Origin: Akkermansia muciniphila
GTDB lineage: Bacteria > Verrucomicrobiota > Verrucomicrobiia > Verrucomicrobiales > Akkermansiaceae
Direction of reading: 5' to 3'
Length of the DNA stretch: 64,000 nucleotides
Assembly (NCBI RefSeq): GCF_900184965.1
Contig: NZ_FXYA01000199.1
Location: 124,001-188,000, forward strand
In this document: piece after piece, positions 37,191 to 46,454 of the stretch
How the letters are laid out: each line of letters starts with the position of its first letter
Position numbering within the stretch: the stretch's first letter is position 1
The notes under the pieces: model-generated
Database searches by the model: none
What the model saw: only the letters and a program-made list of their open reading frames with translations
What the model was told of the DNA's origin: nothing
Translations under genes and position numbers: made by a program

Positions 37191-38042
37191 CTATGCCAAT
37201 CGGCGGCGGCGCATCATGAGAGCAGTCAGCCCCAGGAGGCTCAGGGAGGCTGTGGCAGGTTCCGGCACAACGGCCACATATTGGACATACACACCCTTCT
37301 CGTCAGTACCCAGATGATATTTGCCAAAATCCTCGGCTGTCGCAGTCAGCTCTCCTTCAGTAGAAGTCAGCGCGCCTCCATCGGTTCCAGTTATTGTCCC
37401 CGCTGCAAGGTTCCACGTTTGATAAAGATTTGTGTTGAAAGCTTCTTCTTCAGCCCCGCAAATCAAATACCTCTTTTCAAGACCATATGTAGATGTCGCT
37501 GTTACTATCCCGGTATTCAGGGAAGCGGAAATGGTCGTCGTGCGGTTATTGCCTTCCACCCCATTCATGGAGCCGGACATGTAATTGATCACGCCATGAA
37601 CACCAAAAACCATGGAATGGTTGGCGCCCGGATCAAAGATATTGTAAACGTTCACCGTCCCGTCAATCCGGCTTGTGCCGTACGCAAACAGCGCATTGAC
37701 GTTCAAAACGCTTCCTTCTCCCACATTGAATTGCCCGTCAAACCGGGGATTTCTGCTGGGAATTGATGAAGAAGGGGTTAAGTTTCCCAGAGAAACCGTT
37801 GCTCCGTCGGTTAGATTGAAAATGGTGGAAGAATTACCAAAGATGGAACCTCCGGTTTTTTCCCAATTAACGGAAGCGCCGCTGATGCTAATGGTATCGC
37901 CATTGCCCGGGACAGCATTGGTATCCCAGTTGGCCGCATCTGTCCAATTTTCAGTTCCTGCTCCACCAGTCCATGATACGGAAGAAGCGGAAGCGCTTCC
38001 TAACAAGGCAGCACTCATCAATAAAAACAATGATTTCTTCAT
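37191..38042 (-). CDS. PEP-CTERM surface protein, autotransporter-like beta-helix repeats
   Basis: 283 residues. It has a signal peptide (1-19, LFLLMSAALLGSASA), then Trp/Gly/Asn-rich repeats typical of beta-helical surface proteins (WTGGAGTENWTDAANWDTNAVP), and a C-terminal PEP-CTERM sorting signal: VPEPATASLSLLGLTALMM followed by four Arg. Such proteins are cut by an exosortase and attached or exported at the cell surface; no exosortase gene is in the window. The gene lies downstream of a candidate invertible element, with a promoter that straddles the element boundary, so its expression may be phase-variable. A terminator follows. AT-richer than housekeeping neighbours. Confidence 0.85.
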   Translation of the reverse strand: MKKSLFLLMSAALLGSASASSVSWTGGAGTENWTDAANWDTNAVPGNGDTISISGASVNWEKTGGSIFGNSSTIFNLTDGATVSLGNLTPSSSIPSRNPRFDGQFNVGEGSVLNVNALFAYGTSRIDGTVNVYNIFDPGANHSMVFGVHGVINYMSGSMNGVEGNNRTTTISASLNTGIVTATSTYGLEKRYLICGAEEEAFNTNLYQTWNLAAGTITGTDGGALTSTEGELTATAEDFGKYHLGTDEKGVYVQYVAVVPEPATASLSLLGLTALMMRRRRLA

Positions 38043-38080
38043 AATCGATTTTACAATTAAAAAACCTAGACGGCTTTTGG

Positions 38081-38109
38081 ATGTTAACGGATTATGAATC
38101 CGCCGTCAA
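38081..38109 (-). promoter_or_regulatory. Candidate PEP-CTERM gene promoter straddling the element boundary
   Basis: On the minus strand TTGACG (38104-38109, inside element A) is 17 bases from TAACAT (38081-38086, outside it). The 17-base spacer is almost exactly the inverted repeat. Predicted transcription starts near 38074, giving a leader of about 32 bases before the start codon at 38042. Inversion of the element would remove the -35 box from this -10. Confidence 0.6.
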
Positions 38110-38304
38110 CACTCAAATTTGATAAAAAACAATTTAATGCTTATTTACCCTGTTATTTTCGAGCGCCGGATTTTGAAAAAGCTTCTCTCCCTTTATGGAT
38201 AAAGTTCTTCTCACACGACGGAAAGGTTATGCTGCCCAAGGCATCAGGAAATTCCGCAAGCCCTTCCATCCCAGGATTCCCTTTATATACGGATTCATAA
38301 TTCG
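38088..38304 (+). repeat. Candidate invertible promoter element, copy A
   Basis: Bounded by CGGATT-ATG-AATCCG (38088-38102) and CGGATT-CAT-AATTCG (38290-38304), which are inverted repeats of each other with one mismatch. The first 78 bases align without gaps to the reverse complement of element B at about 77 percent identity (shared GTCAAC, CAAATTTGA, AATTTAATGC, GTTATTT). The last 45 bases share AGCCCTT, GGATTC and CTTTATAT. The middle is unrelated. It fills much of the 423-bp gap between the PEP-CTERM gene (-) and prmA (+). No recombinase gene is in the window. Confidence 0.6.
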
Positions 38305-38465
38305 CGTCCACACTGGAAATAAAATTTATTATTAATTGATATTTAATGTTTTTCTTCAAACAAATCAATTTCTTAACAATAGAGTTCCACAGCCCAGGAA
38401 AGTGGAAACGCCGCCACTGGCAATCCATTCTTGCCTCCTTGCCGGAAAAATCCCATACTTTCTGC

Positions 38466-39326
38466 ATGACATGGAGTTGGAACAAACTTTCCGCCGCCAA
38501 ATGGGAAGACGCGTGGAGCGAACGCATCGCCGGGAATCCGAACGCCGTGATTACAAAAATCAAAGGGGGAAAAACGGTCCGAATTACCGTTTACTGCGAT
38601 GATGAAGAAGACGCCCTGGCTTTGAAAAAATATTTTGGAGGAACCGTCCGGGAAGTCAGGACGCAGGACTGGGTGGCGGCCCAAAAGCGGGAAAAACGCC
38701 CTCCGCTCAAAATAAGAGACACCCTGGTCATTACGGAACAGAGCTCTCCGGAAAATCTGGCCGCCCTGCGGAAGCAGTTCCCCTCGCGCAGCATCCTGAG
38801 CGTCCCCGCCGAAATGGCTTTCGGAACAGGAGACCACGCTACCACATCCACCTGCCTGCGTTTCATCTGCGACATTGCCAAATCCCGCAGAAAAACATCA
38901 TGGACCATGACGGATATAGGCTGCGGCACCGCCGTGCTCGCTATGGCGGCGCTGAAGCTGGGGGCGGAGCACGCCACGGCTTTCGACTTTGACCCCATGG
39001 CTATTGAAGTGGCCCGGCACAACATGGTCCGCAACGCCGTCACGGCGGAACAGCTGGACTTATTTGTGGGAGACGTCTTCGAATGGAAGCCTTCGGAATC
39101 CCATCAGGGGGATCTTGTCGTCGCCAACCTGTTTTCAACTATCCTGCAAAGAGCTTTTCCGCATATCATCGCCGCCATGAAGAAGAATGCCGCGCTGGTC
39201 ATCTCCGGCATTCTGGCCTCCCAGTGGGAAGAAACGAAAGAGGCAGCGGAACGCCACGGGCTGTTCTTTGAACAGGTCGTCAAACGCGGCAAATGGATCA
39301 CGGCAAAAGGCGGCATGGCCCGGTAG
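38466..39326 (+). CDS. prmA: Ribosomal protein L11 methyltransferase
   Basis: 286 residues from MTWSWNKLSAAKWEDAW; the frame is open for 40 codons upstream, but those look non-coding and overlap AT-rich spacer. PrmA features: the EMAFGTGDHATTSTCL motif, the SAM-binding DIGCGTAVLAMAALKLGA, DFDPMAIEVARHN, and VVANLFSTIL (family NI/NL motif). It trimethylates ribosomal protein L11. The N-terminal substrate-recognition domain is short but present (about residues 1-95). Convergent with ribE. Confidence 0.9.
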   Translation: MTWSWNKLSAAKWEDAWSERIAGNPNAVITKIKGGKTVRITVYCDDEEDALALKKYFGGTVREVRTQDWVAAQKREKRPPLKIRDTLVITEQSSPENLAALRKQFPSRSILSVPAEMAFGTGDHATTSTCLRFICDIAKSRRKTSWTMTDIGCGTAVLAMAALKLGAEHATAFDFDPMAIEVARHNMVRNAVTAEQLDLFVGDVFEWKPSESHQGDLVVANLFSTILQRAFPHIIAAMKKNAALVISGILASQWEETKEAAERHGLFFEQVVKRGKWITAKGGMAR

Positions 39327-43432: not shown

Positions 43433-44788
43433 TCAGGGCTTTTTCACCACCAGCTTGCGGATGCCAAACCGGCGGTTGGTATCCGGCCCTCCCCAATTTC
43501 CATCCGTCCCGGACACTTTTCCCTCAAAGAAAAGAGGAGAAATGGAAGGTACTTCCGGTTCCAGATTCTCCTTTTGAAGAGCCTCATGAATCAACTCCTC
43601 TCTCTGGAAAACCAGAGAGCCTACATGATAATATTCCAGGACGAACATCACCCCAAACAGCAAAGTCGCACCGGCAAGACATGCAGTCACCGAGCGCAGT
43701 CCACGCACCATGATTCCATTCCGGTACAATACGGAGAACAACACGGTTGACGCCGCTAAAACAGGCATGGACGACACGAACTGGACATGATGGGCGGGAA
43801 TGCACACCGGAAAATAACAAACGGACATGATGAGCCCCAGCAACAATAAAAAAAGAAGATAAAAGAAGGATTCCTTCTCCTTCCTGATTACTTCCCGGCA
43901 CCGCTCCATGCCGCTGAACAGCAAAAACCCCGTTAATACTGCGGAAACGGCATATATTTTACACAACATCCTCGCGTGGTAATAAAGCAATATCCCGAAA
44001 GACTCCGCATAAGCGCCAAAACCGCCCTTCCTCAAAACTTCACTCGCTCCCAAATCATGGCCAAGCCGCGAGTACAGCCCGGGGGCGGTAAATAGAAACA
44101 GGCCTCCCAAAACAACACCGGCAAACCCGCACCATACATAAGCGTCCACCCTGTGGTTTCGGAGCATGCTGACTGCGGCCATGGTGCAAAACGCCGTCGC
44201 TATTCCTATCGTCGCCCCCTCATTACAGGCGCCGCAGAAAATCCCATAAATCAGGCATCCTGAGGACAGGCTCCACTGAGGGGAGGTCGCCCGCCTCCCC
44301 CACTTGGTTCTGTAAATATTCATGAACCACACAATCAGGCATCCAGTCCACACATAATTCATGGATCCTGCGCGCGTCAGGCAAACATAATAAACAGTTA
44401 CACCGGCTGAAACGAACATGCTTAAAGCAAACAGCCATGTCCAGGCGCCGCACTCCCTCCGGAGATTGGGCATTCTCCCCAAAGCGAGCACATAAAGGCC
44501 GAGAATAAGGGCAAGCACAAACACGGGATTCAAAACCGTCCAGACCAGCCGGGGAGCAGAAGTAATAAAAAACGCCGCCATCTCCCCCAGCCTGGGATTC
44601 CAATACAGGTAGCTGTCCACGCAGGCCTTCCAGACATGGTGGATATGAAACTGTCCAAGGTACCCTGTCCTGTCGTGAATAAAGGAATCCCCGGCAATAG
44701 GGGAAAACCACGAAATAATATATAAAATAAATAATACTGAAAATGTTACAGCAATGGGAAAGACAAAAATTTTCCTCGGTTTCAACAT
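43433..44788 (-). CDS. Polytopic membrane protein, DUF6056/glycosyltransferase-like
   Basis: 451 residues with 10 to 11 predicted helices. The first periplasmic loop after helix 1 holds the pattern GDSFIHDRTGYLGQF ... WNPRLGEMAAFF, with acid residues placed as in GT-C-type glycosyltransferases and DUF6056 proteins. A short soluble C-terminal tail follows. It may move sugars onto surface glycans or proteins, but no activity can be assigned from sequence. Directly upstream lies element B, a second copy of the candidate invertible element. The start ATG at 44788 is preceded by AGGAAAAAAGT, a weak Shine-Dalgarno. AT-richer than the nuo operon. Confidence 0.7.
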   Translation of the reverse strand: MLKPRKIFVFPIAVTFSVLFILYIISWFSPIAGDSFIHDRTGYLGQFHIHHVWKACVDSYLYWNPRLGEMAAFFITSAPRLVWTVLNPVFVLALILGLYVLALGRMPNLRRECGAWTWLFALSMFVSAGVTVYYVCLTRAGSMNYVWTGCLIVWFMNIYRTKWGRRATSPQWSLSSGCLIYGIFCGACNEGATIGIATAFCTMAAVSMLRNHRVDAYVWCGFAGVVLGGLFLFTAPGLYSRLGHDLGASEVLRKGGFGAYAESFGILLYYHARMLCKIYAVSAVLTGFLLFSGMERCREVIRKEKESFFYLLFLLLLGLIMSVCYFPVCIPAHHVQFVSSMPVLAASTVLFSVLYRNGIMVRGLRSVTACLAGATLLFGVMFVLEYYHVGSLVFQREELIHEALQKENLEPEVPSISPLFFEGKVSGTDGNWGGPDTNRRFGIRKLVVKKP

Positions 44789-44801: not shown

Positions 44802-45019
44802 CGGATTGGGAATCCGCATATAAAGCGAATCCCGAAAAGGGCTATGCCGGGGAGGGGCGGCTACAAAGGAAAAAGATTCTCCTTTGCTGCGTTCGGACAC
44901 GTCCACCCGTATATCCGGCAGACCTGATTGCCCGGACCTACCATTCGGAAATAACTGATCAAATTTGCATTAAATTATTTTTTCTCAAATTTGTAGGTTG
45001 ACTCCGGATTCCCAATCCG
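44802..45019 (-). repeat. Candidate invertible promoter element, copy B
   Basis: Bounded by CGGATT-GGG-AATCCG (44802-44816) and CGGATT-CCC-AATCCG (45005-45019), a perfect 15-bp inverted repeat. It is homologous to element A (38088-38304) when read on the minus strand. Its outward -35-like TTGACT (44998-45003) points right, toward nuoD, where no -10 follows at proper spacing. Two CAAATTTG palindromes (44960-44967, 44986-44993) are inside. It occupies the gap between the DUF6056-like gene (-) and nuoD (+). A 14-base palindrome TTAGA-ATAA-TCTAA at 45061-45074 lies just outside. Confidence 0.6.
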
Positions 45020-45209: not shown

Positions 45210-46454
45210 ATGAAGACGAGCACCAAAACTTTCGCCATTGCAGATACAGCCGCTAACGCAGACTATCTCACCAATACATCCGAACCGCTCGGAGAAACGA
45301 TGACCCTGAACGTGGGCCCCTCCCACCCCGCCACTCACGGCGTGCTGCGCCTGGTGCTGGAACTTGACGGTGAAGAAATCATCAGCTGTGATCCGGTGGT
45401 TGGCCATCTGCACCGCGGGATGGAAAAAATCGGCGAAACCATCCAGTACAACCAGTTTGTTCCCTACACCGACCGTTTTGACTACCTGGCACCCCTGTCC
45501 AACAACATCGCCTATGCCTGCGCGGTGGAAAAACTGCTGGGCTGGGAACTGCCGCCCCGTGGACAGGCCCTGCGCGTACTGGCCCTGGAGCTTTCCCGCT
45601 TTTCCTCCCACATCCTGGGGGTGGGCGTGTACGGCATGGACGTAGGCGCCATGACCGTTTTCCTGTACTGTTATGAGGAACGTGAAAAAATCCATAATTT
45701 TTACGAACAGCTCACCGGGGCGCGCTTCACTTCCTCCTACACCCGCATCGGCGGCCAGACGCGCGACGTTCCCAATGAAATGCTCAAGGAAGTGCTCGTC
45801 TTCTGCGATGAAGCGGCCAAAACCCTTGATGAAACGGAAGCGCTCCTGCTCAAGAACAAAATCTTCATTGACCGTCTTCAGGGCGTAGGCGTCATCAGCC
45901 GTGAAAAAGCGCTTTCCTGGGGCATTACGGGGGCCAACCTGCGAGCCAGCGGCATTAAGCGGGACCTGCGCAAACTCACCCCCTATCTGGGATATGAAAA
46001 TTACGAATTCGACGTCCCCGTAGGCGAACACGGAGACTGCTACGACCGTTTTACCGTGCGCATTGAAGAAATGCGCCAGTCCCTGCGCATCATCCGCCAG
46101 GTCATTGAAACCATGCCGGACGGCCCCATCAACATGGTGGACACCAAAGGCACGCTGCCTGAAAAGAAAAAAGTCCTGACGGACATGGAATCCCTGATTC
46201 GCCAGTTCATGACGACAACCATGGGGGTGAACGCCCCCGCCGGGCAGGTTTACTTTGCTGCGGAAAACCCGAAGGGAGAGCTGGGCTTCTTCCTGGACTC
46301 CAAGGGAGGCGGACTTCCCAACCGCCTGCGCATGCGCTCCCCCTCCTTCTGCAACCTGTCCATCCTGCCGGAACTGATGAAAGGCCACCTGGTTTCCGAC
46401 GTTCCGGCCATTCTCGGCTCCTTCGACTTCGTGATGGGCGAATGCGACCGTTAA
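45210..46454 (+). CDS. nuoD: NADH-quinone oxidoreductase subunit D
   Basis: 414 residues, the 49-kDa-type subunit of the complex I hydrogenase-like arm, forming part of the quinone site. Seen: NVGPSHPATHGVLRLVLELDGE with the conserved His pair, GHLHRGMEKIGE, YTDRFDYLAP, and C-terminal ASFCNL-type end (RMRSPSFCNLSILPELMKG ... DFVMGECDR). NuoC is not fused to it. It is the first gene of the operon here; nuoA, nuoB and nuoC are absent upstream. No Shine-Dalgarno precedes the ATG. Confidence 0.95.
   Translation: MKTSTKTFAIADTAANADYLTNTSEPLGETMTLNVGPSHPATHGVLRLVLELDGEEIISCDPVVGHLHRGMEKIGETIQYNQFVPYTDRFDYLAPLSNNIAYACAVEKLLGWELPPRGQALRVLALELSRFSSHILGVGVYGMDVGAMTVFLYCYEEREKIHNFYEQLTGARFTSSYTRIGGQTRDVPNEMLKEVLVFCDEAAKTLDETEALLLKNKIFIDRLQGVGVISREKALSWGITGANLRASGIKRDLRKLTPYLGYENYEFDVPVGEHGDCYDRFTVRIEEMRQSLRIIRQVIETMPDGPINMVDTKGTLPEKKKVLTDMESLIRQFMTTTMGVNAPAGQVYFAAENPKGELGFFLDSKGGGLPNRLRMRSPSFCNLSILPELMKGHLVSDVPAILGSFDFVMGECDR

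Follow-up and report, generated by a model that had tools for sequence, protein, structure and literature searches.

Inverted sites between a PEP-CTERM-type gene and prmA

The window analyzed here is a stretch of 64,000 nucleotides from Akkermansia muciniphila, and it belongs to a genome assembly of 2.86 Mb in 215 contigs (G000). Two short inverted sites lie between a gene for a PEP-CTERM-type protein and prmA, and they bound a segment that holds one half of a putative promoter. The features of the locus, in window coordinates, are as follows.

37191-38042, minus strand: PEP-CTERM-type target gene (283 amino acids), the open reading frame into which the split promoter reads
38081-38086, minus strand: -10 box TAACAT, outside the segment and fixed
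38088-38102: left recombination site, CGGATTATGAATCCG (CGGATT-ATG-AATCCG), both arms perfect; an identical site is present in G006, a second genome of the same species
38103-38289: invertible interior of 187 bp, in exactly the opposite orientation in G006
38104-38109, minus strand: -35 box TTGACG, inside the segment and travelling with it
38290-38304: right recombination site, CGGATTCATAATTCG (CGGATT-CAT-AATTCG), one mismatch, in the outer arm
38346-39326, plus strand: prmA, ribosomal protein L11 methyltransferase, on the opposite flank of the segment

Together the left and right sites span 217 bp (38088-38304). Each 15-bp site is palindromic around its 3-bp core, and the core of the left site (ATG) is the reverse complement of that of the right site (CAT). 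On the minus strand, TTGACG is separated from TAACAT by a 17-bp spacer (38103-38087) that contains the entire left site, and TAACAT ends 38 bp ahead of the start codon of the target gene. There is no -10 box at the 17-bp spacing on the prmA flank, where the sequence is GTCCAC. Within the interior, an A/T-rich stretch lies upstream of TTGACG, and TATATA adjoins the right site at the other end. These findings bear out a sequence-only reading of the locus, which had described a 217-bp segment between inverted CGGATT-N3-AATCCG sites with one arm mismatch, a TTGACG inside and a TAACAT outside at 17-bp spacing towards the PEP-CTERM gene, and a prmA side lacking a -10; the coordinates, the cores, the mismatch and the promoter geometry were all as described.

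The C-terminal tail of the target protein, VPEPATASLSLLGLTALMMRRRRLA, has the form VPEP-hydrophobic-RRRR, as read directly from the translation. It scored 18.5 bits against PF07589 (cut-off 20.7) and 23.7 against NF038129 (cut-off 65).

We compared the features of the locus with chance expectation. The promoter match carries little weight alone, as one match was found in the scanned region (37950-38450) and 1.2 were expected from shuffles, and its strength is modest, with 9 of the 12 consensus bases matched by TTGACG/TAACAT. When up to two mismatches were allowed, the site pattern was moderately enriched in the window (10 occurrences compared to 4.0 expected). Paired self-palindromes with matching cores were found twice in the window (38088/38290 and 44802/45005), and because the mean in 20 shuffles was 0, these pairs are beyond chance. 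The genome as a whole contains 36 exact sites and 96 sites with no more than one mismatch. The same pattern read backwards, used as a control, was found 0 times in G000.

The segment is found in both orientations

The sequence-only reading had proposed that the segment inverts, and a strain with the inverted orientation was found: in G006, sites and flanks match those of the window and the 187-bp interior lies the other way round (99.5% identity, minus strand). In this copy the mismatched arm of the right site has not moved with the interior but still adjoins the outer flank, which places the breakpoint within the site. Both orientations of the segment therefore occur within one species, as compared between two genomes. 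We infer that the locus may also switch inside a single culture.

Orthologous pairs could be compared between G000 and G006 for 20 of the 24 pairs in G000, and the other four had no ortholog in G006. The orientation was the same at 16 loci and flipped at four, including the window locus; two of these 20 verdicts rest on few common 15-mers in a diverged interior (L190, "same", 0.01; L209, "flipped", 0.04), and at both loci the end sequences agree with the verdict. The locus thus shares with the class of Akkermansia CGGATT invertons both the motif and, between genomes, the occurrence of two orientations.

The cores of partnered sites match

We examined the stretches around all 36 exact sites of G000, three of them in the window, and around all 37 exact sites of G006, a single-contig genome. 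A site counted as a partner if it lay no more than 700 bp away and had two arm mismatches or fewer. There were 34 partnered exact sites in G000 and 35 in G006 (23 and 25 pairs, at loci mostly shared by the two genomes). The core of the partner was reverse-complementary in all 69 cases, and no partner with any other core was found among them. Four exact sites had no qualifying partner: two had none at all (C2:386998 in G000 and 975095 in G006), and two had a matching-core partner with three mismatches (C163:73813 in G000 and 1496344 in G006).

The pairing is also kept where the core itself changes. An inverton is present upstream of prmA in eight of the 12 genomes that carry the recombinase E1 (see below), with the cores ATG/CAT, TGG/CCA or GTT/AAC, always paired; the core at this locus varies between species. 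No site of the CGGATT motif was found upstream of prmA in G007, G004, G009 and G008, or in four outgroups (G057, G011, G075 and G045).

The possibility that each locus has a private 3-bp code was rejected. The 24 pairs in G000 use 15 codes, compared to a random expectation of 17.1, which indicates that the cores are not spread so as to avoid clashes, and the core AGA/TCT is common to four loci. Cores agree within a pair yet give no locus its own address.

A family of tyrosine recombinases includes a candidate invertase

The candidate enzymes belong to a family of tyrosine recombinases (the E family), most of them about 345-390 amino acids long. One member, E1 (G000:C39:105691-106785), is encoded 17 kb before the window. 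Orthologs of E1 with at least 89% identity were present in 12 of 76 genomes, all of them among the 14 genomes with at least 22 sites (36-84 sites in each of the 12). Where E1 is missing, in 64 genomes, there are at most 11 sites, with the exceptions of G045 (88 sites) and G002 (22 sites, ten of which lie on C1 and C18 in apparent mirror copies, so that the true number is probably lower). These two genomes have in common a pair of sister recombinases, L129 and L264, grouped with support 100/96 in a tree built from the fetched E genes; neither has an inverton upstream. The 12 E1 genomes appear to form one clade, and among the ten of them searched for XerC, the XerC genes are likewise the most similar. 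The co-occurrence of E1 and sites is therefore a weak test of cause.

E1 carries the Phage_integrase domain (PF00589; 43 bits, cut-off 27.1). Its presumed catalytic residues, R207, K234, R297, H320 and Y330, are invariant in nine aligned family members, and the solved structures matched by its alignment are Xer proteins (five matches). E1 resembles XerC and XerD in its domain and its R-K-R-H-Y residues but falls far below both of the curated NCBIfam cut-offs (38.7 compared to 335.15 for XerC, and 34.9 compared to 329.6 for XerD).

A second link between the E family and the sites, one that does not depend on the E1 clade alone, comes from E genes that have invertons of their own. We scanned 113 E-family open reading frames (106 distinct), 60 of the stretches being hand-picked from a longer listing, and 100 distinct genes had at least 250 bp of upstream sequence. 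An inverton-like pair with matching cores was found just before the start of 43 of these 100 genes, compared to 2 of 2120 shuffled upstream regions; the criteria were set after the first examples had been seen, the shuffles preserve single-base composition only, and near-copies were counted separately. Under the same criteria, no inverton was found upstream of the other 57 genes, which include E1 and its 11 orthologs. The arms of the upstream pairs vary (CGGATT, AGGATT, CGCATT, CGAATT, a CGGAT type with a 5-bp core, and others) and cluster on the tree of E proteins, with 25 label changes compared to 52.7 for shuffled labels, although "none" and E1 count among the labels, and near-copies favor clustering. 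Two closely related proteins, L268 and L076, have unlike upstream arms, which argues against a simple protein-to-site code.

Two E-family genes, L073 in G006 and L075 in G001, lie directly behind their own CGGATT inverton; the segment at L073 has a PEP-CTERM gene on its opposite side. Variant paired sites (AGGATT..AATCCT, CGCATT..AATGCG, CGAATT..AATTCG, and CGGAT with a 5-bp core) are found ahead of the E genes L063, L067, L136, L286, L260, L257 and L263. These variant arms hint at the use of other motifs in site-poor Akkermansia species. Viral contigs were scanned with a phage origin in mind; in them, E-family genes were seen at three loci (40% identity), and the promoter-plus-site pattern was seen in one stretch (L310, 6445-6466).

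From these relationships among sequences, we infer that E enzymes would recognize CGGATT-type sites and that E1 may be the stable, global invertase. There is a substantial possibility, somewhat short of an even one, that the invertase is something other than E1: XerC/XerD, another E-family member, or an enzyme of another type (for example, IS110/Piv-like). XerC-type genes occur in 69 of the 73 genomes, other members of the E family are encoded immediately behind CGGATT invertons, and G002 and G045 are rich in sites without having E1. Against this, XerC-type enzymes are equally common in site-poor genomes, serine recombinases have no match in most of the site-rich genomes searched, and at E ≤ 1e-60 the E1 query matches nothing but E1 in G009 (74 sites) and in G007 (63 sites), although G007, in a sample without G009, gives three E-family matches when the cut-off is relaxed to E ≤ 1e-30.

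Other candidates were rejected. Serine recombinases had no match in nine of the 12 site-rich genomes searched, G000 included; matches (PF00239, E ≤ 0.001) were found in G044, G045 and G046, and in 18 of 73 genomes overall. XerC was rejected given the distribution of XerC-type genes (at least 55% identity) described above, and XerD-like genes are likewise found in most genomes, including those where sites are rare. A third Xer-like gene, B, had no match in G006, G010, G012, G044, G002 and G045, which are six of the 12 site-rich genomes (all but G005 and G009) that the search covered.

The proposed split-promoter geometry recurs across the genome

The geometry proposed in the sequence-only reading, with the -35 inside the segment, the site as spacer and the -10 outside on one flank, recurs across the genome. 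Of the 794 exact sites in the 14 site-rich genomes, 293 have TTGAC exactly 2 bp to the inside (14 of 36 in G000), and with the backwards control pattern it was found at this offset 0 times. We then analyzed 61 pairs: 24 from G000, 26 from G006 (at loci mostly shared with G000) and 11 from G001, the last being 11 of the 15 pairs of G001 whose two sites both appear among the exact sites listed. Three chance pairs (L206 at 2173, L225 at 2227 and L217 at 1811) had been removed by eye before counting.

TTGAC was present at one end in 44 of the 61 pairs, at both ends in none, and was missing from the expected place in 17. An A/T-rich stretch is conserved upstream of TTGAC in this set. Among the pairs with TTGAC, one flank and not the other carried the TA of a -10 at the corresponding position in 17 of 19 from G000, 15 of 18 from G006 and 5 of 7 from G001; six of the 44 had no TA on either flank and one had it on both. 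The presence of a -10 on one flank only indicates that, in most pairs, the -35 half moves and the -10 half is fixed, with the recombination site serving as spacer. This rule has exceptions, namely the 17 pairs without TTGAC and the seven of 44 without a TA on just one flank.

The flanks that carry a -10 in G000, with or without TTGAC at the segment, have an open reading frame in 20 cases, defined as the longest one of at least 100 amino acids starting no more than 450 bp from the site; the -10 flank of L207 gave none. In 11 of the 20, the predicted protein has a PEP-CTERM-type tail, counted by eye (10 with PEP and one with PEA). Several of the other proteins resemble, by eye, repeat-rich adhesins or glycosyltransferases.

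At the 17 one-flank pairs in G000, the TA flank faces the -35 in nine and does not in eight. If the split-promoter rule is right, switch states can be read from an assembly, and G000 would have nine pairs ON and eight OFF. At the window locus, the orientation in G000 is predicted to be ON for the PEP-CTERM gene and that in G006 OFF, and transcription of the gene would be expected to follow. G000 appears to have roughly two dozen switches of this kind, the window locus among them.

Proposed mechanism

We consider it highly probable that the segment at 38088-38304 belongs to the published Akkermansia class as an invertible promoter element, turned by a tyrosine recombinase acting at core-matched sites. 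The enzyme, E1 or another E-family member, would exchange strands inside both 15-bp sites, which have matching 3-bp cores. The 187-bp interior would turn round, carrying the -35 box TTGACG with it, and the -10 box TAACAT would stay outside, beside the surface-protein gene, with the site filling the 17-bp spacer. In the window orientation the two halves would be joined and the promoter ON. With the segment turned as in G006, the -35 would face prmA, where there is no -10, and the promoter would be OFF.

A wider account extends this mechanism to the split promoters of the whole genome. One family of tyrosine recombinases would shift the -35 halves, the site would double as the 17-bp spacer, and the always-matching 3-bp core would set which sites can recombine. 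E1 would act globally, its relatives would be behind the invertons with variant sites, and some invertases may switch their own genes. We regard the arguments for and against this wider account as evenly balanced.

It is also conceivable, but improbable, that the inversion is real and the entire promoter is contained in the segment, or that the segment alternates between the surface gene and prmA. Accounts of inverton-embedded promoters have been published (in the sections of PMC11892184 available), although the promoter motif given there for Akkermansia is of lower confidence and misses the authors' own cut-off of p<0.001. The TATATA beside the right site, at the other end of the interior, could belong to such a promoter. 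The consensus scan of 37950-38450 gave the split pair only, however, the prmA flank has GTCCAC in place of a -10 at the 17-bp spacing, and a -10 is present on one flank in 17 of the 19 TTGAC pairs of G000.

The reading of the palindromes as operators for a dimeric repressor, with the pair looping the DNA and no inversion, seems very improbable: all sites are palindromic, perfectly or nearly so, and the left one occupies the gap from the -35 to the -10, the classic position for a repressor, but paired cores are a requirement of strand exchange with overlap homology that an operator would not need, yet the variable core is reverse-complementary in all 69 partnered exact sites, and the interior is inverted in G006 at the window locus and at three other loci, so that operators as the sole function are contradicted.

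Comparison with known systems

The invertible promoter element proposed here has features in common with well-known switches. The capsule promoters of Bacteroides fragilis are also a set of many invertible promoters of surface structures, served by one global invertase, Mpi, a role for which there is a candidate here. Mpi is a serine recombinase and the promoter is described as lying inside the segment; in contrast, no serine recombinase was found in G000. The fimS element of Escherichia coli shares with the Akkermansia segments tyrosine recombinases (a candidate enzyme in the present case), short inverted repeats and ON/OFF control of a promoter. It differs in that fimS, with FimB and FimE, is a single locus with the promoter within the segment, whereas there are many loci here and the site is in the promoter spacer.

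The closest relatives are the published Akkermansia invertons, which have the same CGGATT..AATCCG motif in the same genus and, like the segment described here, lie beside PEP-CTERM or other surface genes. The motif is credited to Jiang et al. 2019, as quoted in the available text of PMC13343947 (2026, mBio), where a cps1-adjacent inverton with CGGATT..AATCCG flips and tracks capsule ON/OFF. In PMC11892184 (2025, Microbiome), likewise available in part, inverton group 138 comprises 39 invertons, 32 of them from Akkermansia, PEP-CTERM genes are enriched near Akkermansia invertons, and the authors express less confidence in the promoter motif of Akkermansia. The motif and the PEP-CTERM enrichment are thus already in print in these partial texts, and the window locus joins a known class.

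Other aspects go beyond the published text that we found, in its partial form: the paired core, the promoter with the site as spacer, and an enzyme family with invertons of its own. No statement of a 3-bp paired core or a site-split promoter was found in the portions of the Akkermansia inverton literature covered, and split promoters in general were searched narrowly. The available sections of PMC11892184 and of related texts name no invertase for group 138 or the CGGATT sites. Invertases near invertons are described in those sections as generally not positioned for inverton-driven expression, which differs from those E genes reported here that have their own inverton just upstream.

Akkermansia, a gut bacterium that lives in mucus, is widely studied, and an inversion-controlled capsule locus, cps1, has been shown in it (PMC13343947, available portion). 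The window locus supplies a pair of genomes, G000 and G006, predicted to be ON and OFF for a PEP-CTERM-type protein, and the analysis names a testable candidate invertase for the CGGATT sites.

A second inverton in the window and properties of the site pairs

The window contains a second pair of sites with matching cores.

43433-44788, minus strand: gene for a DUF6056 membrane protein, on one flank
44802-45019: second inverton, with sites CGGATTGGGAATCCG and CGGATTCCCAATCCG, cores GGG/CCC, 203 bp apart, and TTGACT at the right end
45210-46454, plus strand: nuoD-like gene, on the opposite flank

This inverton is predicted from its sequence to be OFF for the DUF6056 gene. No orthologous pair was found in G006.

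Arm mismatches were present in 13 of the 24 pairs of G000, in the outer arm only in 12 and in both arms in one. Ten of the 13 outer-arm mismatches are on the flank without a -10. The distances from site to site in G000 bunch at 154-157 and 166-169 bp, which together account for 12 of the 24 pairs.
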